Assembly: GCA_027324805.1 (NCBI GenBank)
Contig: DAHVRZ010000006.1
Span: 1 to 42,631 of the forward strand
Direction: 5' to 3'
Source of the DNA: Candidatus Parcubacteria bacterium
GTDB lineage: Bacteria; Patescibacteriota; Minisyncoccia; UBA6257; 2-01-FULL-56-20
DNA: 42,631 nucleotides
Below the pieces are notes generated by a model. That model was given only the letters and a program-made list of their open reading frames with translations. It was not told the origin of the DNA and made no database searches. Both the position numbers and the translations under genes were made by a program. The first letter of the stretch is position 1, and the number at the start of each line of letters is the position of its first letter. Below are positions 3,289 to 20,368 of the stretch, piece after piece.

Positions 3289-5127
3289 ATGCCGGACGAA
3301 AATCTCCTCAAATACATAAGGGACGGGCTGGCCATGGGCCGCACGGAGGATATTTTGCGTCCCTTGCTCCAGCGCTCCGGCTGGAAAGAGGAAGATGTGA
3401 ATGAAGCGTTTCGGGTCGTGCATGGAGGAGCTCCTGCTTCGGCGCCGGAGTCCGTATCGCCATCACTACAGCAACAGCCGCAGATACAGCCGCAGCCGCA
3501 GATACAATCACAAATCCAACCGCAGATAGAAAATATGCCGCAGCGACCGACGCGCTCCGGCAGCGGAGGGATGGGTAGGTGGATAGCAGGCGGCGCGATC
3601 GCGCTCGTCGCGGTCGCAGGCGGCGCCTGGGCGGCGTATGCATTCTTTGTACCGCCCTCACCCCAGCAGGTGCTCGATGCGATGTTCCAAAAAGGGTTTG
3701 CCGACATAAACTCCATGAATATGGATATGGCCGTAGCGACGGATGTCAGGATAACCCCTGCAACGTCATCGGCATCATCATCGCTTTCGCTCACGGGTGG
3801 GGCGGCGAATCCGCTTGGGGGATACGCGGCGATGTTTTTGGGGAACGGATCTTCCGAGGTGAAGTTGTCGCTCGACGCGAGCGGAACGCTGATCGTGAAT
3901 CCTGCGAATGTGAGGAGCAGTGATGAGAACGTAGCGGCCACCGTTACGATAAACAATGGAGGTCAGAGTGCTTCATTCTCGGGGAGCGGAGAGGTCCGCG
4001 CCCTCCCGGACGCCACCTATTTCAATATCGCAATGCTTCCGAATTTTGGATTCTTCAATGCATCGGCACTCGAAGGGAAATGGATAGAGTTTCCGACCAC
4101 CACATACGATACGGGCGCTTCTTCGCTTGCAGTTTCGTCGAGCACGCTTTCGCCTACGGATGCGGCGCGGCTTACGACGGCCGCCGAGAGTGCGATCAAG
4201 ATCACGAAGACCCTTCCCGACGGGACGATCGGCGGCGTTCCCTCGTATCATTACGCGTACACGATCGACCCCGCCGGAGTGGATGACCTTATTGATGCCG
4301 CCGTGCAGGCAGGGAACGACATGGCGAAGCAGGAATCCTCGACGGTCCAGACGATCGATGCGAGCACGACCGCGCAGATGAAGGATCAGGCGAACGCAGC
4401 GCTCTCCGCACTCGGTTCGCTGGGTGGCGAGATATGGATCGGCAAGTCCGATCATTATCCGCATCAGGTCACCTTTGCGGCATCGTTTTCCACGAGTACC
4501 CCGGCCTATGGATCCGCGACCGGGACGGTGAACGTAACGAGTACGATCACGGACATCAATGGCGGACAGACGGTGACGGCTCCGGCGAATGCAGAATCGT
4601 TCGCGGATATCTTCGCGTACATGCTGACGGGAGCGCCGACGAACTCGCCGGAATTGCTGGCGCAGGGGCGTGATGCGAACAGGATAAGTGACCTTGCAAC
4701 ACTGAAGTCGGCCATTTCCCTTTATTCCGTCGATATGCCGACTCCGGACTTCGCCTGCACCAACAAGAAGACGATCTACGCCTCCGCGCCGATCACGCCC
4801 CCTCCCGGGTGGACGGCGGGAGCGCATATGGGTTCCCGCGCGGTCAACGGCACGGGTTGGATTCCGATCGACTTCGCATCGGTAAGCTCAGGATCTCCGC
4901 TCGGGAAACTGCCCGTCGATCCCTCGAACAATCCAAAGAAGCATCTCGTCTATCTCTTCGCCTGCGACCCGTCGAACAATACATATGAATTGGATGCGGT
5001 TATGGAAAGTAAGAAGTATGGCAATGGAGGATCGAGCGATATCGTATCAACCGACGGTGGCAATGATCCGAACGTGTACGAGGTCGGCACCGATCTCTCC
5101 CTGATCCCGGATAATTTCTGGCGGTAA
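3289..5127 (+). CDS. Single-TM protein with lipoprotein-like ectodomain and a C-terminal pilin-like domain
   Basis: N-terminal ~45-aa helical module, Q/P-rich linker, one TM (WIAGGAIALVAVAGGAWAAYAFFV), beta-rich ectodomain, then RDANRISDLATLKSAISLY...PLGKLPVDPSNNPKKHLVYLFACDPSNNTYELDAVMESKKY as in CPR type IV pilins. Confidence 0.6.
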   Translation: MPDENLLKYIRDGLAMGRTEDILRPLLQRSGWKEEDVNEAFRVVHGGAPASAPESVSPSLQQQPQIQPQPQIQSQIQPQIENMPQRPTRSGSGGMGRWIAGGAIALVAVAGGAWAAYAFFVPPSPQQVLDAMFQKGFADINSMNMDMAVATDVRITPATSSASSSLSLTGGAANPLGGYAAMFLGNGSSEVKLSLDASGTLIVNPANVRSSDENVAATVTINNGGQSASFSGSGEVRALPDATYFNIAMLPNFGFFNASALEGKWIEFPTTTYDTGASSLAVSSSTLSPTDAARLTTAAESAIKITKTLPDGTIGGVPSYHYAYTIDPAGVDDLIDAAVQAGNDMAKQESSTVQTIDASTTAQMKDQANAALSALGSLGGEIWIGKSDHYPHQVTFAASFSTSTPAYGSATGTVNVTSTITDINGGQTVTAPANAESFADIFAYMLTGAPTNSPELLAQGRDANRISDLATLKSAISLYSVDMPTPDFACTNKKTIYASAPITPPPGWTAGAHMGSRAVNGTGWIPIDFASVSSGSPLGKLPVDPSNNPKKHLVYLFACDPSNNTYELDAVMESKKYGNGGSSDIVSTDGGNDPNVYEVGTDLSLIPDNFWR

Positions 5128-5975
5128 TGAACGAGCCGATCACCGACGTCAATGCCGGCACGGTGACGTATCTGAAGAAGCACCCGCTCTGGATCGTCAT
5201 TCCTTTCGGTGTCTTTATTGTTGCGGCGGTGTTCGTCCTTGCGTATCCGTCGATAGCCCCGGGCGACCGATGGGGGAGCATTGCGGTATCCCTCCTTCTC
5301 CTTGTGGTCGTTCCCATCGGCATCGTCCAACAGAAAGTGCAGGACGAGTTCATGCGCCAATTCGCTGCGGCGAACGGATATCAATTCTCGGTGTTCGGCG
5401 GCGATTACAGTACTCTCGATGGCGCGCTTTTCCGCCTCGGCAACGGCGTTCGAAACATCCGTGATGTGGTGAGCGGAGCGTACCTTAATCTCCCGATCGC
5501 GCTGTTCGATTATTCATATGAGACCGGATCGGGCAAGAACCGGCAGGTGCATCGCTACACGGTATTCCAGCTGGGGTTCGATACGGCGATGCCGGATCTT
5601 CTTCTTGAAAGGAAGTCGTTCCTTTCGAGCGATTCCCTGATGAGCAAGCTCCCGGAACACATCAAATTGGAAGGAGATTTCGATAAGGAGTTCAACCTCA
5701 CCATTAAGAAGGGATATGAGATCGAGGCGCTCGAGATATTCACTCCGGATGTGATGGCGGAACTCATGGATAGGTGCCGGAAGTTCAGCCTCGAGATCGT
5801 GAACAACCACCTGTTCGTCTATGACAATAAGGTAGTGGAGAACAAGGCCGATCTCGATGCTTTTTATGGCGTGGTGCGTTATTTTGCCGAGACGCTCGGA
5901 CCTGTGCTCGCGCGCATGAAGCCGGCGCTTGAGGCGCAGGCGGAGGTCGCGGCGGAGATGCAATCAGGAAATTAA
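5127..5975 (+). CDS. Conserved hypothetical membrane protein (two N-terminal TM helices, DUF3137-like)
   Basis: TAATG overlap with the upstream gene; TM helices then ...RNIRDVVSGAYLNLPIALFDYSYETGSGKNRQVHRYTVFQL. Confidence 0.6.
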   Translation: MNEPITDVNAGTVTYLKKHPLWIVIPFGVFIVAAVFVLAYPSIAPGDRWGSIAVSLLLLVVVPIGIVQQKVQDEFMRQFAAANGYQFSVFGGDYSTLDGALFRLGNGVRNIRDVVSGAYLNLPIALFDYSYETGSGKNRQVHRYTVFQLGFDTAMPDLLLERKSFLSSDSLMSKLPEHIKLEGDFDKEFNLTIKKGYEIEALEIFTPDVMAELMDRCRKFSLEIVNNHLFVYDNKVVENKADLDAFYGVVRYFAETLGPVLARMKPALEAQAEVAAEMQSGN

Positions 5976-6168
5976 AAACAGTAAAACCGGTTTGATAAAA
6001 ATATGATGAATTTTACTTTAATAGTAAAGGTGGCATTCGTATAAACGCGGACCGAAAACTTCACTGGTCATATAAAACGGCCACAATGCGGCTGCTTTAT
6101 ATCCGTCTTGAGGTTTTTTTGGGGAACGGCGTGATAGGCTTATGTTGCCCGCGGATCATGAGCCATGC

Positions 6169-6196
6169 TTGACTCGCCGTTTTTTTGCCCTATAAT
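6169..6196 (+). promoter_or_regulatory. Promoter of groESL
   Basis: TTGACT (6169-6174), 16-bp spacer, TATAAT (6191-6196), immediately followed by CIRCE. Confidence 0.8.
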
Positions 6197-6201
6197 TCCT
6201 A

Positions 6202-6228
6202 TTGGCACTCTAGGGTCGGAAGTGCCAA
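6202..6228 (+). promoter_or_regulatory. CIRCE operator (HrcA binding site)
   Basis: TTGGCACTC-N9-AAGTGCCAA inverted repeat, one mismatch, upstream of groES; canonical CIRCE is TTAGCACTC-N9-GAGTGCTAA. Confidence 0.92.
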
Positions 6229-6261
6229 TTAGTATAAATTATGTCGTAATAATCAAAAATC

Positions 6262-6552
6262 ATGAATTTTAAACCATTATCGAATCATCTGTTCCTTGAG
6301 CCGGTCGAAGAGGAGAAGACGACGAAGAGCGGTATTGTGCTCCCCGAAACCGCGGAGAAAGAGCGGCCGGTGAAGGCCAAAGTGGTCGCCGTGGGTCCGG
6401 GCAAGCGGAATGAAAAGGGCGAGGTGGTGCCGATGGCGGTGAAGGTCGGCGATGTCGTGCTCTTCAAAAAATACGGTCCGGACGAGTTCGAGCTCGACGG
6501 TAAAAAATATCTCGTCGGCGACGAGGATGACATCCTTGCAGTGATCGAATAA
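6262..6552 (+). CDS. groES: Co-chaperonin GroES
   Basis: 96 aa; PLSNHLFLEPVEEEKTTKSGIVLPETAEKERPVKAKVVAVGPGKR...GDVVLFKKYGPDEFELDGKKYLVGDEDDILAVIE. Confidence 0.97.
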   Translation: MNFKPLSNHLFLEPVEEEKTTKSGIVLPETAEKERPVKAKVVAVGPGKRNEKGEVVPMAVKVGDVVLFKKYGPDEFELDGKKYLVGDEDDILAVIE

Positions 6553-6569
6553 TTTTTAGAAATCTTTAA

Positions 6570-8237
<1,668 letters not shown>

Positions 8238-8278
8238 GGGAACAAAACCGGAACTTCAGAGGAAGGAAAGAGAGAATC

Positions 8279-8310
8279 AAGGCCCGCGCAATGCGGGTCT
8301 TGACTTTTTT
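8279..8310 (+). terminator. Rho-independent terminator after groEL
   Basis: AAGGCCCGC-gcaat-GCGGGTCTT then GACTTTTTT. Confidence 0.8.
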
Positions 8311-8363
8311 ATATTATATGATAATATATTTCCTATGCCTCAATTGGAGGTATGGAGGGTAAA

Positions 8364-8627
8364 ATGAGATTGGCAGTTCTTTTTCTGGGGGCGCTTACGA
8401 TATGCGCCCCGGCTGTTGCCGAAACGGCGGCCATGACGGTGAAGCCTGCAACGCCACGGTTCATCGCTCCGATGAACGGCAAAGCGACCATTCCACGGGT
8501 AAAACCCGCAGGAATAACCGTCATCCCGGCAACCAGAAAGGTAGTCGGGATCGTAAGGCCGGTCGGCTTGCCGACGCCGGTAACCGTGAAGTTTCCTCGA
8601 GCAGGAACGCCTAAACGGGCGTTCTGA
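8364..8627 (+). CDS. Small secreted hypothetical protein
   Basis: Signal peptide MRLAVLFLGALTICAPAVAETAA, then a Pro/basic-rich tail (KPATPRFIAPMNGKATIPRVKPAGITVIPATRKVVG...); GGAGGG 5 nt upstream of the ATG. Confidence 0.5.
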   Translation: MRLAVLFLGALTICAPAVAETAAMTVKPATPRFIAPMNGKATIPRVKPAGITVIPATRKVVGIVRPVGLPTPVTVKFPRAGTPKRAF

Positions 8628-8688
8628 TCGCCCTTATTGCCGCCGCCGCCGCAAAAGATTGTTCCATTGTTCTATTCTCCCAATCAGC

Positions 8689-8726
8689 GCCCATCCTCAG
8701 TACTATCGAGGATGGGCCATCTTTTT
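8689..8726 (+). terminator. Rho-independent terminator
   Basis: GCCCATCCTC-agtactatc-GAGGATGGGC then CATCTTTTTAT. Confidence 0.8.
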
Positions 8727-8757
8727 ATATGGCATATAAAATGCACCCAATACCGAC

Positions 8758-8786
8758 TTGAATTCGTATATAAAGTGACGTAAAAT
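8758..8786 (+). promoter_or_regulatory. Promoter TTGAAT-N17-TAAAAT for lemA-htpX
   Basis: -35 at 8758-8763, -10 at 8781-8786, only 6 nt before ATG 8793. Confidence 0.65.
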
Positions 8787-8792
8787 AAAGAT

Positions 8793-9350
8793 ATGATAGG
8801 ACTTTGGATATTGATCGTGGTCGTGGTGGTCGTTGTAATATGGCTCATCGCGGCTTATAACGGACTTGTCACCACGCGCCAGCGCGCGCAGGAGGCATAT
8901 TCCGATATCGACGTTCAACTGAAGCGCCGATATGACCTTATTCCGAACCTCGTCTCGACCGTGCAGGGATATGCCGCACACGAGAAGACCGTTTTTGAGG
9001 ATGTGACGAAGGCGCGCACCGCCGCCATGAGCGCGACGGGCAACGACGCGAAGGCCGCCGCCGAGAATCAGCTCTCGGGAACGCTGAAGTCGCTCTTTGC
9101 CGTTGCGGAAAATTATCCGGACCTCAAGGCGAATCAGAACTTCCTCCAGCTCCAGGCCGAACTCACCGATACGGAGGATAAGATCCAGGCCGCCCGCCGC
9201 TTCTATAACGGCATGGTGCGTGACCTGAACACCCGCATCCAGGTCTTCCCGACCAATATGTTCGCAAACATGTTCGGCTTCACCAAAATGGATTTCTTCG
9301 GCAACGACCTGACGGACGCGGAACGGCAGCCGGTGCAGGTCAAGTTCTAA
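8793..9350 (+). CDS. lemA: LemA family protein
   Basis: 185 aa; N-terminal TM, YNGLVTTRQRAQEAYSDIDVQLKRRYDLIPNLVSTVQGYAAHEKTVFEDVTKARTAA; next to an M48 peptidase. Confidence 0.95.
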   Translation: MIGLWILIVVVVVVVIWLIAAYNGLVTTRQRAQEAYSDIDVQLKRRYDLIPNLVSTVQGYAAHEKTVFEDVTKARTAAMSATGNDAKAAAENQLSGTLKSLFAVAENYPDLKANQNFLQLQAELTDTEDKIQAARRFYNGMVRDLNTRIQVFPTNMFANMFGFTKMDFFGNDLTDAERQPVQVKF

Positions 9351-10277
9351 ATGGCAAACATCTATCAGTATCAATCCGCCAATGTGCGCCGCACGTGGCT
9401 CATGTTCGTAGTGTTTTTCCTCGTACTCGGCGCGCTCGGGTACGCGATCTCCGCATATTACGGCGACCCGAGCTTCTTGGTCTTCGCGATCATCTTCAGT
9501 GTCGTCTATTCGTTCATCAGCTATTACGGATCCGCAAAGATCGCACTCTTGCTCTCCCGTGCGGTGCCGATCGAGAAGCAGGATAATCCGATGTTGTATA
9601 ACCTCGTGGAGAACCTGACGATCGCGGATGGTCTCCCGATGCCGAAGCTTTATGTGACGCCGGAAATGCAGATCAACGCATTTGCCACGGGGCGTGATGC
9701 GGAACATGCCGCCGTAGCCGTGACCGCGGGCGCGCTCCAGCGGCTCAATAAAGACGAACTCCAGGGCGTGATCGCGCACGAGCTTTCGCACGTGAAGAAC
9801 CGCGATATCCTCGTGTCGACCGTCGCCGCAATCCTCGCGGGCATCATCGCGCTCATTGCGGACATTTTCCTCCGGTCGCTTTTCTGGAGCGGCGGCTTCG
9901 GTGGCCGCGGCGGCGGACGCAACAATGAGGCGGGGGAGGTATTCTTCATTATCGCGATCGTCCTTTCGATCCTCGCGCCGATCGGTACGATGCTGATCCA
10001 GTTTGCGATCTCGCGCCGCCGCGAGGCGCTCGCCGATGCTTCGGGCGTTCTCCTTACGCGCTATCCGGAAGGTCTCATCTCCGCGCTCCAGAAGATCGCG
10101 GCGGACGACGTGCCGATGCGCGCGGCGAAGGATTCGACGGCGCACCTTTGGATTGACACGCCCTTCAAGGGGAAGGGGACGTCGTGGTGGCACAAGGCAT
10201 TCATGACCCATCCGCCGATCGAGGAGCGGATCAAGGCGCTCCGCGACATGGGCGGACTCCCGTCGCAGGAAGCGTAA
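9351..10277 (+). CDS. htpX: M48 family metalloprotease HtpX
   Basis: VIAHELSHVKNRDILVSTVAAILAG, RRREALADASG, C-terminal THPPIEERIKAL; directly abuts lemA. Confidence 0.95.
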   Translation: MANIYQYQSANVRRTWLMFVVFFLVLGALGYAISAYYGDPSFLVFAIIFSVVYSFISYYGSAKIALLLSRAVPIEKQDNPMLYNLVENLTIADGLPMPKLYVTPEMQINAFATGRDAEHAAVAVTAGALQRLNKDELQGVIAHELSHVKNRDILVSTVAAILAGIIALIADIFLRSLFWSGGFGGRGGGRNNEAGEVFFIIAIVLSILAPIGTMLIQFAISRRREALADASGVLLTRYPEGLISALQKIAADDVPMRAAKDSTAHLWIDTPFKGKGTSWWHKAFMTHPPIEERIKALRDMGGLPSQEA

Positions 10278-11031: not shown

Positions 11032-11121
<90 letters not shown>

Positions 11122-11122
11122 G

Positions 11123-11158
11123 TGCAAAAAAGGACAGCAGAAGCTGTCCTTTTTTGCA
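11123..11158 (+). terminator. Strong symmetric terminator after tRNA-Ser
   Basis: TGCAAAAAAGGACAGC-agaa-GCTGTCCTTTTTTGCA perfect inverted repeat. Confidence 0.92.
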
Positions 11159-11258
11159 TCTGTCTGATGGATGGGATTCGAACGCCGGAGGAAGATTTTT
11201 CAGCGGAAAAATATTCCGAGGCGGTGCCCAGAGTGCGCGAGCGCGGCGGCGCGAGTGC

Positions 11259-11285
11259 AACTCGCGGGCGAATCCCTCCCTCTCC
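11259..11285 (+). repeat. tRNA-Ser 3'-end-derived direct repeat, copy 1
   Basis: AACTCGCGGGCGAATCCCTCCCTCTCC, identical to 16083-16109; CGAATCCCTCCCTCTCC is identical to the tRNA-Ser 3' end at 11101-11117. Confidence 0.85.
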
Positions 11286-11377
11286 GCAAAGTCGAGCCAA
11301 CTCGAGATGCCCATAGGGTAAACACCAAATGCATGGTAGTATTTTTTTTATAGCGGGCTTAGATAGCTTTCTCCATC

Positions 11378-12178
11378 ATGACCGAAGATCAGTATCTCGA
11401 TATTTTAATTTCATGCGAGCCGATTTTTGAACAGGCTGCGAGGCTCGCGTGCGATTTGCGGAATAAAGTATCATCCTATAATAAATCACAGACAGGCGCT
11501 GAGGGCATCGACATTGTAACCGATGCTGATTTGCAGGTTCAGGAATTTATTCTTTCAAGATTGGCCGAGACACCACTTATCGAATGTGAATTGATTGCCG
11601 AAGAGTCAACCCCATCAGTTTCAAAATTCAAAGGAACAAATAGATTGGTGCTTTTGATCGATCCGATCGATGGTACGGCAATGTATGTTGACGGAGGAAA
11701 GTATTTTTCACTGATTGTCAGTATGCACAATAAGAAAGACTTGCTATATACCTACTATCATTACCCTTCACTGAACTGGACTAAAAAAATCGTAAAGGAT
11801 CGAGCAGAAGATATCGGCGATGTGCCTGAGATGCAAATAAAGCCAGGTATCGATCCGATGAAAATGATCGCATATCTCGCTCACGTTAAGCCAGAAGAAT
11901 TGCCGTCCGAAATCGAAGAGAAGCTGAAGTCTAAGGGGTTATCGGTGCACAATCGGAAGGATATTTCTGATGAAGCTACCATGACCGCGTTGCTTTATCG
12001 AGAAAAGATTGCCGGAGTGTGCGTGCAGAATCCCATGGCGTACGATTGTTTGGGTGCCCTGCATTATGCATACGCAACGGGCAAATTTGAAATATATTCA
12101 ACCGTAGATCTTTCGAAACCGACCAAGGGTCAATTCGGGGTATATTATCCCGGATTATATGTGGTGTGGAAAAAATGA
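11378..12178 (+). CDS. Inositol monophosphatase-family phosphatase
   Basis: DIVTDADLQVQEFILSRL...ECELIAEES...LIDPIDGTAMYVDGGKYFSLIVSM (Mg-binding DPIDGT), C-terminal MAYDCLGALHYAYATGKFEIY. Confidence 0.82.
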   Translation: MTEDQYLDILISCEPIFEQAARLACDLRNKVSSYNKSQTGAEGIDIVTDADLQVQEFILSRLAETPLIECELIAEESTPSVSKFKGTNRLVLLIDPIDGTAMYVDGGKYFSLIVSMHNKKDLLYTYYHYPSLNWTKKIVKDRAEDIGDVPEMQIKPGIDPMKMIAYLAHVKPEELPSEIEEKLKSKGLSVHNRKDISDEATMTALLYREKIAGVCVQNPMAYDCLGALHYAYATGKFEIYSTVDLSKPTKGQFGVYYPGLYVVWKK

Positions 12179-12196
12179 AAGCCCATCGTATTGTAA

Positions 12197-12222
12197 AAAA
12201 GGACCCCTTAGGGGGTCCTTTT
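12197..12222. terminator. Bidirectional terminator between convergent genes
   Basis: AAAAGGACCCC-ttag-GGGGTCCTTTT. Confidence 0.85.
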
Positions 12223-12232
12223 CGGACACTCT

Positions 12233-12643
12233 TTATTTTTGACTGGATTTGTATGCTTCCAATATCTTCTTTAGTGTCGTCGCGGATGACTGGTAAAACT
12301 CCTTCTCTTGCCAACTCATATTAACAGTGTGGTTCGGTCGATCGGCTGACCTTTCTTGTATATCGGCGAGCACGGGCAAATAACCCTCGTATCGTTGCTG
12401 TAATAGATTCAGTACTTTTGCCTCATCACCATCTTCGACGATCTTCGGAGGTATATATCCTTCTGCTTCGAAGAATACCCGAGCATCTTTGATGATATCG
12501 CCGGTAGGAGTGATCCCGTTGAGTTTTTCAATCCGTGTTTCGTCTGCCTCTTCCGGCGTATTCTCCTCGGGCGGCACGAAATGGGCTCGCTCTGCCTCTA
12601 TTTCTTCATTAGGTTCAGGGAACCCTTCTGATTTATTATCCAT
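12233..12643 (-). CDS. Hypothetical protein
   Basis: 136 aa acidic protein; terminator-bounded and preceded by a TATTAT box 6 nt from the ATG. Confidence 0.6.
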   Translation of the reverse strand: MDNKSEGFPEPNEEIEAERAHFVPPEENTPEEADETRIEKLNGITPTGDIIKDARVFFEAEGYIPPKIVEDGDEAKVLNLLQQRYEGYLPVLADIQERSADRPNHTVNMSWQEKEFYQSSATTLKKILEAYKSSQK

Positions 12644-12786
12644 AGCCTAATAATATTCCCGTGGAGCAACATAATCAATCTGCCTCGGAGGCGGTATCTG
12701 ATCGCAATGTTATTCGAACATGTCCCACGCCGCCCGCCAGATTTTAATGATTGGATTTAATAAAGAAACAGATATATCATAACCTT

Positions 12787-13362
12787 ATGGGAAAAGAGGA
12801 CTGGAAAGGAGATCTTGAGGCTCGCGCTCAGGAAGCGCAGAACAATAGTGAATCGTCGGGAGAATATCCTGAATTTTTAGAACGGGAGGATTCTCCGCAT
12901 CAAGAAAAAAGTGAAAATAAAGAAGCTATTTATCAAGAAATAGCACAACGGGCAGCTAAATTAAATGAATACATTTCTCATTTACCCAATGACTTCCCCG
13001 ATGTGGATTTATTGAAATCCCTTTCCACTATCCTGACTCGCACCGCACTTGATAGAAAACAGCAGACCTCTCAGAAAGCCAACAAAAAGCTGATCTCCTA
13101 TTTGGATGGTATATTGCATCGACTGGGATATGAAACGATCAGTAAGATAGAAAAATTTGAACTGGAGGACCGTGCCCAGCTAAGCGGTAATGAAACGTGG
13201 CTTAAAGATCGTGATGCTGCAAGAGAAGAACTTGAGCGTCTAAAACCATGGGCCGAAAACGGCATCGGCGATGAACGCGCAGGGGCACAAGCTTCTATGA
13301 ATATAATCTATTCGAAATTTCCGGAATTGAATCCAAATCGCGAAAGCGATCGAGAGGTATAG
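12787..13362 (+). CDS. Hypothetical protein (charged, helical)
   Basis: MGKEDWKGDLEARAQEAQNN... internal ATG preferred over TTG at 12751; AT-rich coding-like composition. Confidence 0.55.
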   Translation: MGKEDWKGDLEARAQEAQNNSESSGEYPEFLEREDSPHQEKSENKEAIYQEIAQRAAKLNEYISHLPNDFPDVDLLKSLSTILTRTALDRKQQTSQKANKKLISYLDGILHRLGYETISKIEKFELEDRAQLSGNETWLKDRDAAREELERLKPWAENGIGDERAGAQASMNIIYSKFPELNPNRESDREV

Positions 13363-13636
13363 ATGCCGGTTCGAATATCATCCCACACTACCCGCAGTCT
13401 AGGCGATAGTATCGTAGCGATCGTCTTATATGGGTTTTTTAGTGAGACCGACTTACCCGAGGGCGGAAGGACGGCCGAACTTTTTTTCGGGATGACGCCA
13501 GGGCGACCGAGACGGTTCGAATACTGGTACCCCGCCCGTTAATACGATAAAATAGCGCATAAAAAAGAAAGCGGCTACAATAGAGATTATCTCGCCGACA
13601 TTGCAGGTCGGCAGAACCGAAATCACAATCTCTGCC

Positions 13637-15976
13637 ATGGATCAATACGCAGGATTAAAGGATGCTGATATTGCTGGCTTGCGGGCGCAGTTCGGTTTCA
13701 ACGAAACCCCCGTTTTCCATGAGAGCATGGTCGTACTGTACTTCAAAAATTTTTGGGGACCGCTCGCATGGCTTATGGAAGCGATGGTCGTCATCACGTT
13801 TCTGTCCGGCGATACTTTTGAAGCTGTTGTTATCGCCTGCCTGCTCCTCATCAACAGCGGCATTAATATATATCAGCGCAGGTCCGCCGATGCCGCTCTC
13901 GCGCTTTTGGCGCAGGCGATCCAGACGACCGCCCGCGTGCAACGGAACGGAATCTGGAGCGTCGTACCATCGCGGGAACTCCTCCCTGGAGACAGTATCC
14001 GATTGCGCGCGGGCGACGTCATTCCCGCCGACGCACGGATTTTTGACGGGAGTCTGAGCGTGGATTTTTCCAGTCTGACCGGAGAGTCGCTGCCGCGCGA
14101 CATGAGCACGCAGGACACCGTCTATTCGGGCGGTATCGTACGGCGTGGAGAAGCGACCGCAAAAGTGACCGCGATCGGCGAAAAGACCCAGTATGGACGA
14201 ACGACCGAACTCCTTGAAACCGCGCATCCGCCGACCCATATGGAGAGGGTCGTGTTTGATATCATCAAATATTTTTTCGCGCTCAATGTGGTTGTGGCGA
14301 TCGCCGTGACCATTTTCGGATTTGCCGTCCATGCGCAGGCATTGCAGATCACGAATTTCGTTATTGTGCTCCTTATCATGTCCGTGCCGGTCGCTTTTCC
14401 GACGATGTTCGCCGTGGCGCAGACATACGGCGCGCTCCAGCTCAACAAAGGCGGCGGCAAAGAAAACGAAGGTTCAAAAGTCCTGGTCCGCCGATTGGCT
14501 GCGGTGCAGGAGGGCGCCATCATGGATGTTCTCTGCAGCGATAAAACGGGGACGCTGACTCAGGACCTCCTGAGCGTGTCGGAAGTCACTTATTATGGCG
14601 CGAGCGATGAATCCCGCGTACTGATGCTTGCCGCCGCGTGCAGTAATATTGCGGACAAAGATTCCGCCATTGATCAGGCTGTCTTTCGGAAAACCGCCGA
14701 GCTGAATATCGCCGTTCCGCAACAGGTCAGCTTCTTTCCTTTTGACTCATTAACCAAGCGAACGCGGGCAGAGATCATCGAACAAGGGAAGAAGATCAAT
14801 ATTGAAATGGGACTGGCAGACCTCCTGTTAAACCCCGCAGTGCTTTTTTCCCGGGAAGCGTTCGCGGATATCGCCCGCATGAGCAGTAAAGGATTGCGTA
14901 TTTTGGCGATAGTAACGGGCGCTCCCGAAGCGGCATGCGCCGGCCTCATCGGTCTCAGCGATCCTATCCGTCCCGACGCACCGGCACTCATTCAAGAGCT
15001 CAATAATCTCGGCGTGAGCGTTGTCATGATCACGGGCGACGGCCGCATTACGGCACAGGCGGTCGCGAATGAACTCGGATTACAGGGCGGCGTCTGCACG
15101 CCTGATGACCTCAAAAATAATCCGGAGATCGCTCTGCATTGCGTTGTTTTTGCGGAAGCCTATCCTGAAGATAAAGTGACGATCATCAAGGCGCTCCAGA
15201 AGGCCGGACATGTCGTTGGCATGACGGGCGACGGCGTGAACGATGCGCCGGCACTCCGCCAGGCGGAGATAGGCATCGCCGTCCAAAGTGCGACCGAGGT
15301 CGCCAAGCAGTCCGCAAGCTTTATCCTTACCACGCCCGGACTGGAGGGGGTGCGCCGCGTCGTCACGGCGAGTCGCCGCGTTTACATGAGGATCCGCACC
15401 TGGGCACTGAATAAGGTGGTAAAATCCATTGAAATTTTATTCATTGCCACGATCATATTCGTTATCACGCATTCATACATCCTCTCGCCGCTCATCGCCA
15501 TTCTTATCCTGCTGGCTAATGATTTTTTGACCATCACGATTGCGACCGATCATACGACGCCGCTCTTCCGTCCCGCACGCTGGAATATTCCGCGGATGAT
15601 CGCCGCGTCGTCAATGATCGCGGCCATACCATTCTTCTTTACGATTTCTCTCTATGCTATAGCCCAACGTTTTAATTATCCTTTTGATGCAGTGAGGACG
15701 ATCGTATACGGCTCGCTCATTTATCTCGGCGGAACGACCTTGCTTGCCGTACGCGCGTGGCCGTTCGGCTGGAGCGTCCGTCCAAGCAAGACATTACTCG
15801 GAGCGCTTCTGTTCTCTCTGATATTCACATCGCTCGTCGCCGGGTTCGGAATATTCATTACGGCAATGCCGACGATCTTCTTTGTGCCGATCGCCGTCGG
15901 CGCGATTGCCAGCTTTTTCCTCATTGAGGCCGTCAAGCAGTCGCGCACCGTACGCGCCTTATTGGATATTGCGTGA
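13637..15976 (+). CDS. P-type ATPase, plasma-membrane proton pump-like (P3A) family
   Basis: SSLTGESLP, CSDKTGTLTQDLLSV, MITGDGRITAQAVANELGL, GMTGDGVNDAPALRQAEIGIAVQSATEVAKQSA; LLANDFLTITIATDHT in the C-terminal TM region. Confidence 0.88.
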   Translation: MDQYAGLKDADIAGLRAQFGFNETPVFHESMVVLYFKNFWGPLAWLMEAMVVITFLSGDTFEAVVIACLLLINSGINIYQRRSADAALALLAQAIQTTARVQRNGIWSVVPSRELLPGDSIRLRAGDVIPADARIFDGSLSVDFSSLTGESLPRDMSTQDTVYSGGIVRRGEATAKVTAIGEKTQYGRTTELLETAHPPTHMERVVFDIIKYFFALNVVVAIAVTIFGFAVHAQALQITNFVIVLLIMSVPVAFPTMFAVAQTYGALQLNKGGGKENEGSKVLVRRLAAVQEGAIMDVLCSDKTGTLTQDLLSVSEVTYYGASDESRVLMLAAACSNIADKDSAIDQAVFRKTAELNIAVPQQVSFFPFDSLTKRTRAEIIEQGKKINIEMGLADLLLNPAVLFSREAFADIARMSSKGLRILAIVTGAPEAACAGLIGLSDPIRPDAPALIQELNNLGVSVVMITGDGRITAQAVANELGLQGGVCTPDDLKNNPEIALHCVVFAEAYPEDKVTIIKALQKAGHVVGMTGDGVNDAPALRQAEIGIAVQSATEVAKQSASFILTTPGLEGVRRVVTASRRVYMRIRTWALNKVVKSIEILFIATIIFVITHSYILSPLIAILILLANDFLTITIATDHTTPLFRPARWNIPRMIAASSMIAAIPFFFTISLYAIAQRFNYPFDAVRTIVYGSLIYLGGTTLLAVRAWPFGWSVRPSKTLLGALLFSLIFTSLVAGFGIFITAMPTIFFVPIAVGAIASFFLIEAVKQSRTVRALLDIA

Positions 15977-16082
15977 AGCTGTCCGGAAAAACAACGAGGC
16001 ATGATTGACCGCGAGCTATTTATAGGGGAGAAATTGGGGCGCGCCATATGAGGGGTATTTGAGGGGATGGATTGCTACGTTA

Positions 16083-16109
16083 AACTCGCGGGCGAATCCC
16101 TCCCTCTCC
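16083..16109 (+). repeat. tRNA-Ser 3'-end-derived direct repeat, copy 2
   Basis: AACTCGCGGGCGAATCCCTCCCTCTCC, 27/27 identity with 11259-11285. Confidence 0.85.
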
Positions 16110-16127
16110 CTATGGTAGCTTCATTTT

Positions 16128-16298
16128 ATGAAGCTCATTTCCCTCAATACATGGGGTGGCGAAGCAGGAGAGATTATCCTCGATTTTTTTAAGCATAATC
16201 GCGACGTCGATATTTTTCTTCTGCAGGAAGCGTACAATCATGCCACTGACAAAACCGATTGGAATGGCAAAAATATAACAGAGCTTTTTGATGCATGA
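16128..16298 (+). pseudogene. Truncated endonuclease/exonuclease/phosphatase (EEP) family protein
   Basis: MKLISLNTWGGEAGEIILDFFKHNRDVDIFLLQEAYNHATDKTDWNGKNITELFDA*: EEP motifs NTWGG and LLQEAY, then stop at 56 aa. Confidence 0.75.
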
Positions 16299-16627
16299 AA
16301 GCATTATATTCGTTGAGACATTTCCTTTGGATAGAGGGTGTTATGGTCCTGATTGCTCTTGGAAGTAATTTTCTCGCTTCCTATTTATCCAATTTCCCTC
16401 TGCTGCCGTATTGTACGCCGCCCGCGCCCGTCTGCACGGGTGGAATTTGTCCGCAATATCATATGGTTTTTCCTCCTAATTTTCTTTGCGCCAACATAAT
16501 GACATACGTTTTTACCGGCGCGCTTTGGCTTGTTTGGACCAATCTCGTCGGCTTTATATTCTTTTCAATCCACGATTTTATTAATCGGAAAAAGAGCGGC
16601 AAAACATCCTCGCCGGGAATGTCTTAG
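16295..16627 (+). CDS. Hypothetical membrane protein
   Basis: ATGA overlap with the EEP remnant; 110 aa with two hydrophobic segments and a Cys/Pro-rich loop (YCTPPAPVCTGGICPQYH). Confidence 0.5.
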   Translation: MKALYSLRHFLWIEGVMVLIALGSNFLASYLSNFPLLPYCTPPAPVCTGGICPQYHMVFPPNFLCANIMTYVFTGALWLVWTNLVGFIFFSIHDFINRKKSGKTSSPGMS

Positions 16628-16708
16628 GGCATGGTCGAGCGGACTGGGATGGCGAATTTTAATTCGACCATCCCTCCGTGCCGAAAAAGTTTGGGGTATA
16701 CTAAGGGT

Positions 16709-17152
16709 ATGCTACAAAAGAAGCTCCAAGAAGATGGCGCTCAGGATATTGCTGCAATCGCAGTAATGAAGCGCGATGGAAAAATTTTGACCGGCCTCCG
16801 TAATTACACCAAAGATAAATGGAAAGAAATCTCGGTCTGGACGATTCCAGGAGGAAGGTGCGATATTGGTGAAACGCTGGAGCAAACGCTCCGGCGCGAG
16901 GTTGCTGAAGAGGTGGGTATCACCGAATTCGAGATCACCGGTTTTATTGGTGAAGCCCCCGGGGCTAAAGAAGGGGATCGTGTCGTTATATTTTCCTGCA
17001 CGACAAATCAGGACGAAAAGCTTATGGAACCTGAAAAATTTTCAGAATGGCGGTGGGTTTCCAAAGATGATTATCTGAACGATGGGCAATATTCCGGATT
17101 TAATCCCGCAGCCCGTAAGCTGATTGTTGATTTTTTATGCTCAAATCCTTAG
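16709..17152 (+). CDS. NUDIX hydrolase
   Basis: Nudix box GGRCDIGETLEQTLRREVAEEVGI; TATACT box 6 nt before ATG. Confidence 0.92.
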   Translation: MLQKKLQEDGAQDIAAIAVMKRDGKILTGLRNYTKDKWKEISVWTIPGGRCDIGETLEQTLRREVAEEVGITEFEITGFIGEAPGAKEGDRVVIFSCTTNQDEKLMEPEKFSEWRWVSKDDYLNDGQYSGFNPAARKLIVDFLCSNP

Positions 17153-17158
17153 CCGTCA

Positions 17159-17611
17159 TTGTTTGAACATAATTCCTATATGTCTTCTTCTGGATTGATG
17201 TATGCGGTCGGGGCCGCTGTCGCCTGGGGTGCTGTTTATACGATCGATCAGCGAGTGCTGCGCGGCGCTTCTCCTTTCGCGCTCCTCTTTGTTAATTCTA
17301 TTCTGACCGCGCTGCTCCTTTTGCCCTTCATCTTTTTCGAGAAGAATTCCTTGTCTTCCATCACCGGCTCCTCGGTCCGTATATGGCTGCTGATCATCAC
17401 CGCTCTAGCCTTGGCCGCTCTCGCCAATTATTTTATTTTCTCAAGCATAAAGATCCTCGGCGCCTCTACTGCATCAATTTTCGAAATTGCTTATCCATTT
17501 TTTGTCGTCCTGTTCACTTCCATTGTTTTTCAAAAAGCTCCAAGCCTTTATTTCGCCCTTGGGGCCGTTCTCATCTTTGCCGGAGCTGTCGTGATCATCG
17601 CTTTTGCCTGA
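17159..17611 (+). CDS. Single-domain EamA/DMT-superfamily transporter
   Basis: 150 aa, about 5 TM helices; AVAWGAVYTIDQRVLRGASPFALLFVNS...IKILGASTASIFEIAYPFFVVLFT. Confidence 0.78.
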   Translation: MFEHNSYMSSSGLMYAVGAAVAWGAVYTIDQRVLRGASPFALLFVNSILTALLLLPFIFFEKNSLSSITGSSVRIWLLIITALALAALANYFIFSSIKILGASTASIFEIAYPFFVVLFTSIVFQKAPSLYFALGAVLIFAGAVVIIAFA

Positions 17612-17660
17612 GGGAGAGGAGGGACTTCTCTCTTGAGGAGTCGTCTTTTCGGGAGCATTT

Positions 17661-18227
17661 TCAAAACAATCGATCCCTCAGTTCCTGCACGCCGATTTTC
17701 TTCACGGAAGAATAGGGGATGACGGGCAGCCCGTGCGCGAGGTCGATGATGGTCTGTAGCCGCTCGTCGTGGTCGGCGGGCTTTATCTTGTCGATCTTGT
17801 TGGCAACAATGACGACATCTTTTTGGTATTCGCGAAGAAGTGCGAGCATCTCGATGTCGTTCTTTGAGGGACCGACGTTCGCGTCGAGTACGAGGACGGC
17901 TTTATGCTGTTCGTGGCCCGAATCGAAAAGGTACCACCAGTTCAGTTTCCGGAGCTTTTCGCGGACCTTCTCGGGAACTTTCGCGAACCCGTATCCCGGG
18001 AGGTCGAGCAGGTAGAATGCGGCATTGATGGAATACAAATTGATCTCCTGCGTAAGGCCCGGTGTGTCGCTCGTGCGCGCGAGCGCTTTCTCGCCGGTGA
18101 GCGAATTGATGATGCTCGATTTGCCGACATTCGATCGGCCGATGAGCGCGACCTGAGGCGTGCCATCCGAAAGAAGCTCGTCGGTGCCCTTTATTCCCCG
18201 CACGAACGCTGCGGAAGTGATCTGCAT
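17661..18227 (-). CDS. engB: Ribosome biogenesis GTPase YihA/YsxC/EngB
   Basis: ALIGRSNVGKSSIINSLTGEKALARTSDTPGLTQEINLY...LLDLPGYGFAKVPEKVREK...IVANKIDKIKP. Confidence 0.96.
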   Translation of the reverse strand: MQITSAAFVRGIKGTDELLSDGTPQVALIGRSNVGKSSIINSLTGEKALARTSDTPGLTQEINLYSINAAFYLLDLPGYGFAKVPEKVREKLRKLNWWYLFDSGHEQHKAVLVLDANVGPSKNDIEMLALLREYQKDVVIVANKIDKIKPADHDERLQTIIDLAHGLPVIPYSSVKKIGVQELRDRLF

Positions 18228-18230
18228 CCG

Positions 18231-18626
18231 CTATGCGCCCTCTTCCAAAATTTTCAGCATCGTGTCGATTTTTGCATTCATTGCGGCGATCTGGCGCGTA
18301 AGGTCGGCGATGCTCTTTTCTCCGCCGGCCGGCCGGGCGCGTTCCGGGCTTGCGGATGAATTCCGCTTGAGCGAGGGGTGTGCGCTCCGCGGCGCATCGA
18401 AACAATCTTTGCAGTAGACGGGCTTTTGGCCATCGGGGCGGAACGGGACCTGGCAGGGTTTGCCGCAATTGCTGCACACCGCGTCGAACATTCGAACCGC
18501 CTTCTGATAGCCGCCTTCCCGTGCGCCAGGACGGCCAGGACGCCCCGTGCGCCCGGATGTGTTTCTATTAAATTGAGGACGGCCTCCTTTTGTGCCGCCG
18601 GCATAAGGCTTTCTGAAATCGCTCAT
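18231..18626 (-). CDS. CxxC-x17-CxxC zinc-binding domain protein
   Basis: VRMFDAVCSNCGKPCQVPFRPDGQKPVYCKDCFDAPR, a domain common in CPR proteomes. Confidence 0.82.
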   Translation of the reverse strand: MSDFRKPYAGGTKGGRPQFNRNTSGRTGRPGRPGAREGGYQKAVRMFDAVCSNCGKPCQVPFRPDGQKPVYCKDCFDAPRSAHPSLKRNSSASPERARPAGGEKSIADLTRQIAAMNAKIDTMLKILEEGA

Positions 18627-18732
18627 TTTGATATGAATATATTGATTGGTATGCGACTACCGAAGAGTAGTCTTTATTGAAAGTAAAAGCAATAAGAAGG
18701 GACGATCGCAAAAGGAAAATCGCGGGCGGATC

Positions 18733-19038
18733 CTATTTGGATTTTTTGCCGTATATGAATTGTTGCGAAGGACTCATCGTCTTATCCGTGCGATGGATGC
18801 AGCCGGCCCAGCAGCAAGGCCGGCGCATGCCTTCTTTAAGTTCGGAGCATACCCTCCGAATGTGCTCCTTTCTGGTCTCCGGCTGTTTGACCGAGATGGT
18901 CCAGCATATCCATTCGTTGCGCGCAAGCGGCGTGATGTCGCTCCATTTTGCGAGCGCGGCTTTGTCGGAGGAGAGGGCCTTCCGCAGATCGGTGGGCATC
19001 GTGTGGGCGGTTCCGGAGGGGATCTTTGGATGTGCCAT
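18733..19038 (-). CDS. YdeI/OmpD-associated family protein
   Basis: MPTDLRKALSSDKAALAKWSDITPLARNEWICWTISVKQPETRKEHIRRVCSELKEGMRRPCCWAGCIHR matches the family core. Confidence 0.78.
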   Translation of the reverse strand: MAHPKIPSGTAHTMPTDLRKALSSDKAALAKWSDITPLARNEWICWTISVKQPETRKEHIRRVCSELKEGMRRPCCWAGCIHRTDKTMSPSQQFIYGKKSK

Positions 19039-19299
19039 ATGCCAATGGTACACCCGTTGGCTGTTTCGGGGAATTCGGATGTATACATTATGGCCATGAG
19101 AAAGGTATCTGAATGGCTTGGATGGCACAGTGTTGCTGTGTCGATGGCGCATATATACCGATCAGTTCCATATTCGCCCAAGGATCCGCGAACGAACATA
19201 TCGAGGGCATAGCGGTGAATCCGACTCTGTAATATTCGGTGAATGACTCCGTAATACTCAAGGAAAGGTCGGAGGGTAATGCAACTACCATTCACAAAC

Positions 19300-19698
19300 A
19301 TGAAAAAAGCAACTATTCTTGCGTTCGCGCTCTTTGCGGGAGCAGCGCTCGGAGGCGCACTCTTCATCGGCGACAGCATGAGCGTCGGCGCGCAAACGAC
19401 GTCGCTTTCCTGTTCGCCGGCATCGACGATGGTCGCGCCGGGACAGTCGGTCACGCTTTCCGCATCGGGAGGCAACGGCACGTACCAGTGGTCGAGTCCA
19501 GGCCTCACGATCACGAATCCGTTCGGGGCGAATTTCGCGGTGACCTTCAACCGGGACGGCACGTTCCCGGTGACGGTGACGAGCGCGGGTACGACCGCAA
19601 CGTGCAGCGTCCTAGTGACGGGCACGGCGGTGCCGAGCACATCGACGGCGCCCGTAACGACTCCGGGTCTTCCGAATACCGGTGCACTGCCGGAATAG
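19300..19698 (+). CDS. Secreted Ig-like protein with C-terminal LPNTG motif
   Basis: Signal peptide MKKATILAFALFAGAALGGALFIG; CSPASTMVAPGQSVTLSASGGNGTYQWSSPG Ig-like fold; ends ...GLPNTGALPE*. Confidence 0.7.
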   Translation: MKKATILAFALFAGAALGGALFIGDSMSVGAQTTSLSCSPASTMVAPGQSVTLSASGGNGTYQWSSPGLTITNPFGANFAVTFNRDGTFPVTVTSAGTTATCSVLVTGTAVPSTSTAPVTTPGLPNTGALPE

Positions 19699-19735
19699 GC
19701 AGGACGGTAAGGTCGGATAAAACCAAACTAATGTA

Positions 19736-20368
19736 ATGACGATGCCATCGCGTGCGAAATCACTATTGAAAAAAAGTGCACTTGCGGCGCTTGGCGTCGT
19801 GTGCGGAATGGGCGCGGTCATCGGATACCGTGCGGTCGTTGCGGAAATCCGCTCGAACGCAGGCGCCGCGCCCTCCGTACAGGCCGATGTAGTCCCGGTA
19901 GGGATGCCGGAGACGCTTGTCATCCCGGCCATAGGCGTTTCGGCCCCGGTCGTGGCGGTCGGCATCGCGAAGGACGGAAGCCTCGGCGTGCCTTCGGATG
20001 CGGTCCATGTTGCATGGTACAAATATGGACCGAAGCCCGGCGAGCCGGGCGCCGCAGTGATCGACGGCCACCTCGACACCATCCATTCCCCGGAAGCGGT
20101 TTTTTATAATCTGGACAAGCTGGCGCCGGGCGATGAGGTGGATATTGTGACGGCGGCAGGGGAGAGGCTTGTTTTCAGGGTGACGGGCACGGAGACGCTT
20201 CCATACGATGCGACGACGTCGGCCATCTTTACGACGACTTCGACAGTGCCGGAACTGAACCTCATAACGTGCGCCGGCGACTGGGTGAAGGCGATCAAGC
20301 TTTATAATGAGCGGTTCGTGGTCTTTTCGAAGCTCGTGTCATCTTCCTCCGCGGCGGCATCGTTGTAG
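19736..20368 (+). CDS. Sortase, class E/F-like
   Basis: LVIPAIGVSAPVVAVGIAKDGSLGVPSDAVHVAWYKYGPKPGEPGAAVIDGHLDT...GDEVDIVTAAGERLVFRVT...ELNLITCAGDW...NERFVVFSKL; His/Cys/Arg catalytic residues present. Confidence 0.9.
   Translation: MTMPSRAKSLLKKSALAALGVVCGMGAVIGYRAVVAEIRSNAGAAPSVQADVVPVGMPETLVIPAIGVSAPVVAVGIAKDGSLGVPSDAVHVAWYKYGPKPGEPGAAVIDGHLDTIHSPEAVFYNLDKLAPGDEVDIVTAAGERLVFRVTGTETLPYDATTSAIFTTTSTVPELNLITCAGDWVKAIKLYNERFVVFSKLVSSSSAAASL

Follow-up and report, generated by a model that had tools for sequence, protein, structure and literature searches.

We analyzed a stretch of 42,631 nucleotides from a Candidatus Parcubacteria bacterium (contig DAHVRZ010000006.1; hereafter the window), in which each of two identical 27-bp repeats downstream of a serine tRNA gene is probably the right end of a small insertion element, both elements belonging to a new family. 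The intact tRNA-Ser(GGA) gene (11032..11121; ARAGORN and Rfam tRNA match) lies on the forward strand, and its 3' end at 11101-11119 serves as the template sequence, A. Directly 3' of the gene is a perfect terminator-like hairpin (TERM, 11123..11158; inverted repeat I3 with 16-nt arms of 100% complementarity). It is followed on the same strand by a 5' arm (A', 11166..11183), which by sequence is the reverse complement of the tRNA T-loop and T-stem (GATGGATGGGATTCGAAC) and whose complementarity was tested family-wide. Next come a conserved core (11184..11268), defined by fold, covariation and a covariance model and comprising helices P2 (an AT-rich hairpin with a CGCC/GGCG base) and P3 (GCCC/GGGC base), and a displaced direct copy of the tRNA-Ser 3' end (11269..11287, 19 nt exact). 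Copy 1 of the 27-mer (11259..11285, forward strand) consists of the last 10 nt of the core and 17 nt of this displaced end, while copy 2 (16083..16109, forward strand) is a truncated element, in which the same last 10 nt of the core precede a displaced tRNA-Ser 3' end. The cargo segment between the two element ends (11288..16082) contains no full element, tRNA or integrase.

A first-pass annotation of this DNA had reported both the exact repeat and the match of its tail to the tRNA, and both observations hold. The 27-mer (AACTCGCGGGCGAATCCCTCCCTCTCC) occurs at no other position in the window at up to three mismatches, and shuffled sequence yields 0 such repeats with none expected by chance, so a chance origin was ruled out. 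The 19 nt shared exactly by the tRNA gene (from 11101) and copy 1 (from 11269) are CGAATCCCTCCCTCTCCGC, and the copy at 16093 matches them with 2 mismatches (17 nt in common). In the whole genome the 27-mer is found only at these two sites, yet the longer element that contains copy 1 has relatives on contigs C59 and C22. The annotation had also regarded the repeats as a distinct element rather than a bare duplication of attB, which is borne out by the 10 common non-tRNA nucleotides, since they belong to the element core.

The 27-mer forms the 3' end of an element of about 120 nt (11166-11287) that folds into a three-way junction, where stem P1 (GGGATTCG paired with CGAATCCC) closes P2 and P3. 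Folding exceeds that of shuffled sequences both as RNA (z -6.4, 11122-11300) and as single-stranded DNA (z -3.2, 11166-11290). Across an alignment of 15 elements, compensatory changes appear in 22 of the 36 predicted pairs and 98% of the pair cells are paired, compared with 79.5% in shuffles; double changes number 93 versus 29, and the covariation score is 0.52 versus 0.16. The covariance model that we built for the family and used to find copies matches the window at 11173-11276 with 113.7 bits. No Rfam 15 match covers the window element at E values up to 1, and at eight further element loci the tRNA alone reaches the Rfam 15 gathering threshold; a known RNA family was therefore ruled out, as none in Rfam 15 fits the element.

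Altogether, 203 distinct elements were found with the covariance model, and the named hosts are all Patescibacteria. Carriers account for 9 of 38 genomes in the family, with 1-8 copies each, and for 22 of 380 genomes in the phylum sample; presence is patchy within one genus. A strict DNA pattern matches at least 117 stretches in a species-level genome collection, and among the matches listed every informatively named record belongs to Patescibacteria (Kaiser-, Taylor-, Nomura-, Uhr-, Moran-, Woesebacteria and others). A virus-borne origin was rejected: the pattern has 11 matches in IMG/VR, none of which is a covariance-model match, and these were put down to chance. A search of plasmids returned no element match, and searches of the open-access literature, with subscription papers outside their range, returned no description of such an element.

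The elements are closely tied to tRNA genes. A same-strand tRNA gene lies no more than 300 bp upstream of 172 of the 203 elements, compared with 7.3% of random positions, and 8 further elements are too close to a contig end to judge. The median distance is 59 bp, and the targets include 19 isotypes and one transfer-messenger RNA (tmRNA). On its 3' side the element carries a direct copy of the end of the neighbouring tRNA, which begins at the T-loop (typically with CGA, or TCC) and reproduces the acceptor end, even CCA, exactly; a direct copy of at least 12 nt is shared with the element's own tRNA in 61% of cases and with other tRNAs in 0.15%. The 5' side corresponds to that tRNA end in reverse complement. 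In many lineages an additional hairpin separates the acceptor part of this side from its T-stem part, and the gapped reverse-complement score of the side reaches at least 10 in 73% of comparisons with the own tRNA versus 13% with others. Even the variable T-loop positions are complementary (position 59 in 103 of 106 cases, position 57 in 101 of 106). The terminator hairpin is continuous with the A' arm in 25% of cases, compared with 7% of tRNAs. From the direct copy, the inverted arm and this continuity, the unit reads as A - TERM - A' - core - A. A separate observation concerns locus L111, where a tRNA-like gene that was not called by ARAGORN and has an apparent group I intron (AGATATAGTCC motif) lies at about 6480-6600, directly upstream of an element.

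Such a layout could also belong to a structured regulatory RNA of tRNA operons, in which A' would have the tRNA 3' end and the displaced copy as alternative pairing partners and so switch tRNA maturation or termination, spread and cargo being secondary. The nearly constant location on the tRNA strand, the strong covariation, the mutually exclusive A/A' pairings and the frequent continuity of terminator and A' agree with this view, as does the preponderance of G.T (16) over A.C (5) among 539 fixed pairs (A1). However, the element is positioned after a terminator-like hairpin and copies the acceptor end down to CCA; it also forms tandem arrays, is patchily present in a single genus, and interrupts tRNA-Arg T-loops in genomes G170 and G111. 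When measured without a pairing model, the element stems are 90-96% Watson-Crick, and G.T makes up just 0.8% of the P2/P3 pairs versus 4.4-5% in the tRNA stems of the same loci, by a method that trims mismatched stem ends. Overall, the pair frequencies somewhat favor a fold that the tRNA strand adopts as DNA, with RNA also possible, and as a test of RNA against DNA the comparison of G.T with A.C is suggestive, not decisive. We consider a primarily regulatory RNA improbable.

Comparison of related genomes bears on the mobility of the element. Gene order around tRNA-Ser(GGA) is conserved in the genus: G007 has the element and the displaced copy exactly and G002 a diverged version, while the sister genomes G005 and G006 have neither at the syntenic tRNA-Ser and thus provide empty sites, although with a different downstream length. 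The distance from this tRNA to a conserved block (window position 20295) varies from approximately 1.2 to 9.2 kb among genus genomes. The nearest relative of the core is found in the same genome for 46 of 103 elements, versus 2.6 expected (maximum 10 in 500 shuffles), and for 37 of these 46 it is located at a different tRNA. Tandem arrays of elements occur at four loci (L120, L225, L228, L237). In G170 and G111, units sit inside the T-loops of tRNA-Arg genes (GCAGG / units / CGAATCCTGCC) and each is followed by an intact tRNA-Arg; at the orthologous locus there are three units in G170 versus one in G111. At L225, L236 and L240 in these genomes, the interrupting units are 100 bp long and one to three stand in tandem. 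As judged from genome comparison, the orthologous empty sites, tandem arrays and T-loop insertions show mobility at the DNA level.

The displaced tRNA-Ser end and the element-free orthologous loci thus confirm the view of the repeats as an integration footprint at a tRNA 3' end, as proposed in the first-pass annotation. As a whole, that interpretation stands in part and was incomplete, because copy 1 terminates a complete structured element on its 3' side and copy 2 is a truncated relative, both from a dispersed family that occupies nearly all tRNA isotypes, is normally cargo-free, and has arms matching each tRNA in both directions.

At locus L209, the cores at tRNA-Lys and tRNA-Leu are 99% identical, and the arms follow each tRNA. 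Different arms on nearly identical cores of one genome may suggest that the tRNA-matched arms arise locally, through template switching or through gene conversion where tRNA and terminator form a palindrome-prone site, and that the core spreads by an unrelated process. The continuity of the arms with the terminator palindrome in a quarter of cases favors this idea as well. It leaves the conserved core and its exact placement between the arms unexplained, however, and it could equally be one step of the mechanism described below. As a separate explanation we find it fairly unlikely.

The best reading of these data is a new family of non-autonomous elements of tRNA 3' ends that are able to behave like cassette recombination sites. 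Comparative data document the family, its structure, the association with tRNA genes, the tRNA-specific arms, the empty sites, the spread within genomes, the arrays and a parallel case with a restriction-modification cassette. We consider it probable that each 27-mer is the right end of a small palindromic insertion element without coding capacity, that both elements belong to a family found at patescibacterial tRNA 3' ends, and that members of this family move as follows. With A as the tRNA 3' end from the T-loop onward, A' as its reverse complement and the core as a conserved two-helix structure, recombination at the tRNA T-loop would bring a unit in and restore the tRNA, with a displaced 3' end left behind, and units would be able to stack in tandem. 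Under the simplest model suggested by the A - TERM - A' - core - A layout, the mobile form would be a folded single strand or a circle with stem A/A' that recombines with the tRNA's own A, following the logic of integron attC x attI recombination. The enzyme would probably be the housekeeping Xer or another host enzyme, and the arms may be held identical to the tRNA via template switching (correction at palindromes) or by selection for pairing. In the window, 11122-11287 would then represent a cargo-free unit, and 11288-16109 a second unit, this one with cargo, in which the element has been stripped of most of its core and the cargo would have come in as one unit. A stronger version is a new system in which a circular dumbbell-shaped single strand with a tRNA-3'-end stem enters T-loops, re-tailors both arms and can carry cassettes, including restriction-modification genes, with housekeeping enzymes only; we offer it tentatively, as it may well be wrong.

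Several observations weigh against the proposed mechanism. About 39% of the tRNA-linked elements lack a direct copy of 12 nt or longer, and the surplus of G.T pairs over A.C mismatches is compatible with an RNA role too. In the genomes examined, the distribution of the elements is not matched by that of any dedicated tyrosine recombinase, Y1 transposase or reverse transcriptase. The cargo genes of the window are unlike in GC content and in distribution among relatives. In our cargo survey of approximately 33 distinct tRNA-linked loci, for which the downstream sequence examined reached up to 20 kb, the tRNA end recurred at a distance on the same strand at only two, the window (+4971) and G220 (+5127), and most elements are cargo-free. 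Finally, GAGGGGATGGATTGC before 16083 resembles a decayed A' arm, and it folds no better than chance (z -1.0).

With regard to the mobilizing enzyme, a tyrosine recombinase (PF00589) is present in every genome examined. A count of exactly one is found in most genomes of either kind, element-rich or element-free, and this single enzyme is presumed to be the housekeeping Xer. The window genome has two by PF00589, the second on contig C22 at 78 kb, and no dedicated one was found. Y1 transposases were rejected as the mobilizer for want of correlation, being absent from G000-G004, G007, G015 and G086, several of them element-rich; reverse transcriptases likewise do not correlate and are absent from G000, G086 and G220.

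These results also bear on an ordinary tRNA genomic island, that is, a tyrosine-integrase element that used tRNA-Ser as attB and lost its integrase, with the 27-mers as attL and attR. A displaced tRNA 3' end and a regenerated tRNA are the standard endpoint marks of tRNA- and tmRNA-targeted islands with tyrosine integrases (Islander, PMC4383910), and the island genes look foreign. On the other side, the 10 common nucleotides are element core and not tRNA, the same element occurs at 19 isotypes without cargo, and most element-rich genomes have only one tyrosine recombinase. The annotation was right that no integrase lies between the repeats, as none appears among the open reading frames (ORFs) and Pfam matches of 11288-16109. 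An ordinary island with an integrase was rejected on the lack of an integrase and the cargo-free copies elsewhere; the reading in general is largely refuted because of cargo-free copies at other tRNAs, and we regard it as highly improbable.

Compared with known systems, the footprint is like that of tRNA-targeted islands, and the folded site and arrays are like those of attC cassettes, although the element does not qualify as the former for lack of an integrase, nor as the latter for lack of RYYYAAC/GTTRRRY sites. As in tRNA-targeted islands, the 3' part of the tRNA is the target, the tRNA is regenerated with a displaced 3' fragment at the far end, and relatives (G005, G006) have the orthologous empty site. 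In contrast to such islands, a typical unit measures about 150-180 bp and has no coding sequence, no integrase gene was found within the window island, an inverted copy of the tRNA end is included, and a single element family is found at 19 isotypes. Integron cassettes and attC sites (PMC2727003, PMC6393395) similarly combine a folded palindromic site, conserved structure with variable sequence, tandem arrays and occasional adjoining cargo. The element differs in that it forms a three-way junction with a conserved core, its arms equal the tRNA 3' end, most units are empty, and the consensus arms are GGATTCGAACGCC / GCGGGCGAATCC instead of the RYYYAAC/GTTRRRY core sites. No IntI was identified among the PF00589 matches, a search not aimed at the IntI-specific domain.

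Non-autonomous palindromic repeats such as miniature inverted-repeat transposable elements (MITEs) and repetitive extragenic palindromes or bacterial interspersed mosaic elements (REP/BIME) with their REP-associated tyrosine transposases (RAYT) are short, structured, dispersed and devoid of coding capacity, as is the element. Unlike them, it has a strict tRNA 3'-end location and strand and target-matched arms, and the Y1 transposases expected by analogy with REP/BIME and RAYT are absent from several element-rich genomes. Small elements with cargo at tRNA genes also include tycheposons and other tRNA-associated hitchers; they differ in that no recombinase module is seen here. To our knowledge, a structured core of this kind is not known from them. 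The tycheposons are named in PMC11389934. If our reading is correct, the family would be an unrecognized class of mobile elements across Patescibacteria, whose reduced genomes have poorly known routes of gene gain, and it would offer a means to locate tRNA-linked hotspots and their cargo. It also raises a testable puzzle, namely by what means an element that has no recombinase of its own fits both of its ends to whichever tRNA gene it enters.

The pair of elements in the window appears to bracket a small block of mobile genes. On the forward strand these are an IMPase-family gene (11378..12178; Pfam PF00459, E 1.9e-12), an orphan ORF of 191 aa that was not detected outside this genome in a search of 38 family genomes (12787..13362), and a P-type ATPase closest to the proton-efflux type (13637..15976; TIGR01647, E 9e-161, 537 bits, below the cut-off of 615); a second orphan ORF, of 136 aa and without a family match, lies on the reverse strand (12233..12643). 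Relatives of the IMPase (78-79% identity) occur in only two genus genomes, G001 and G005, at other, unrelated loci. ATPases of the window type are located downstream of tRNA-Ser(GCT) in G018 (245 bp) and G006 (1.7 kb), and the 3' end of the G018 tRNA is identical to that of the tRNA-Ser(GGA) in the window; the window genome's own tRNA-Ser(GCT)/infB locus has no such ATPase. A distant P-type ATPase (34% identity) was also noted about 3 kb downstream of tRNA-Ser(GCT)/infB in G001 (C2:45905-48220). GC content rises from 43-50% (11.0-13.5 kb) to 55-56% at the ATPase and falls again past the second repeat, staying low to about 17.5 kb. The AT-richer island described in the annotation is thus found in its first half and not over the ATPase, nor is it bounded by the repeats. 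The differences in GC content and distribution suggest that the cargo may be composite.

The parallel case is L226 in G220 (C12:14001-34000), where two 97% identical elements flank about 4.85 kb at tRNA-Ser(GCT), including genes for a TdeIII restriction enzyme and its methyltransferase, a LexA-like repressor and a nuclease of the pPIWI-associated type (4893-9353). The window has the same layout, except that its distal element is cut to the last 10 core bases and the tRNA end. Two mobile elements might instead have been in place first, with the 4.8-kb cargo then added between them by homologous recombination or stepwise insertions and not as a cassette of the element system. The rarity of cargo, the contrast in GC between the IMPase/orphan and ATPase halves and the unlike distributions of the cargo genes are in line with this possibility. 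Nevertheless, the order tRNA - element - about 4.8 kb - element - displaced tRNA end occurs in two independent cases, and the ATPase lies downstream of tRNA-Ser genes in relatives. We hold separate arrival to be rather unlikely, though it deserves consideration.

Past the second repeat, an AT-richer variable stretch (16110-20295) encoding NUDIX, EamA, EngB-like GTPase and sortase proteins extends up to the conserved block, so that the hotspot exceeds the island between the repeats in size. The variable region that holds the window cargo encodes, in G002 (C12:26922-27341, within L214), a reverse transcriptase domain about 5 kb downstream of the element-bearing tRNA-Ser, possibly part of a diversity-generating retroelement.

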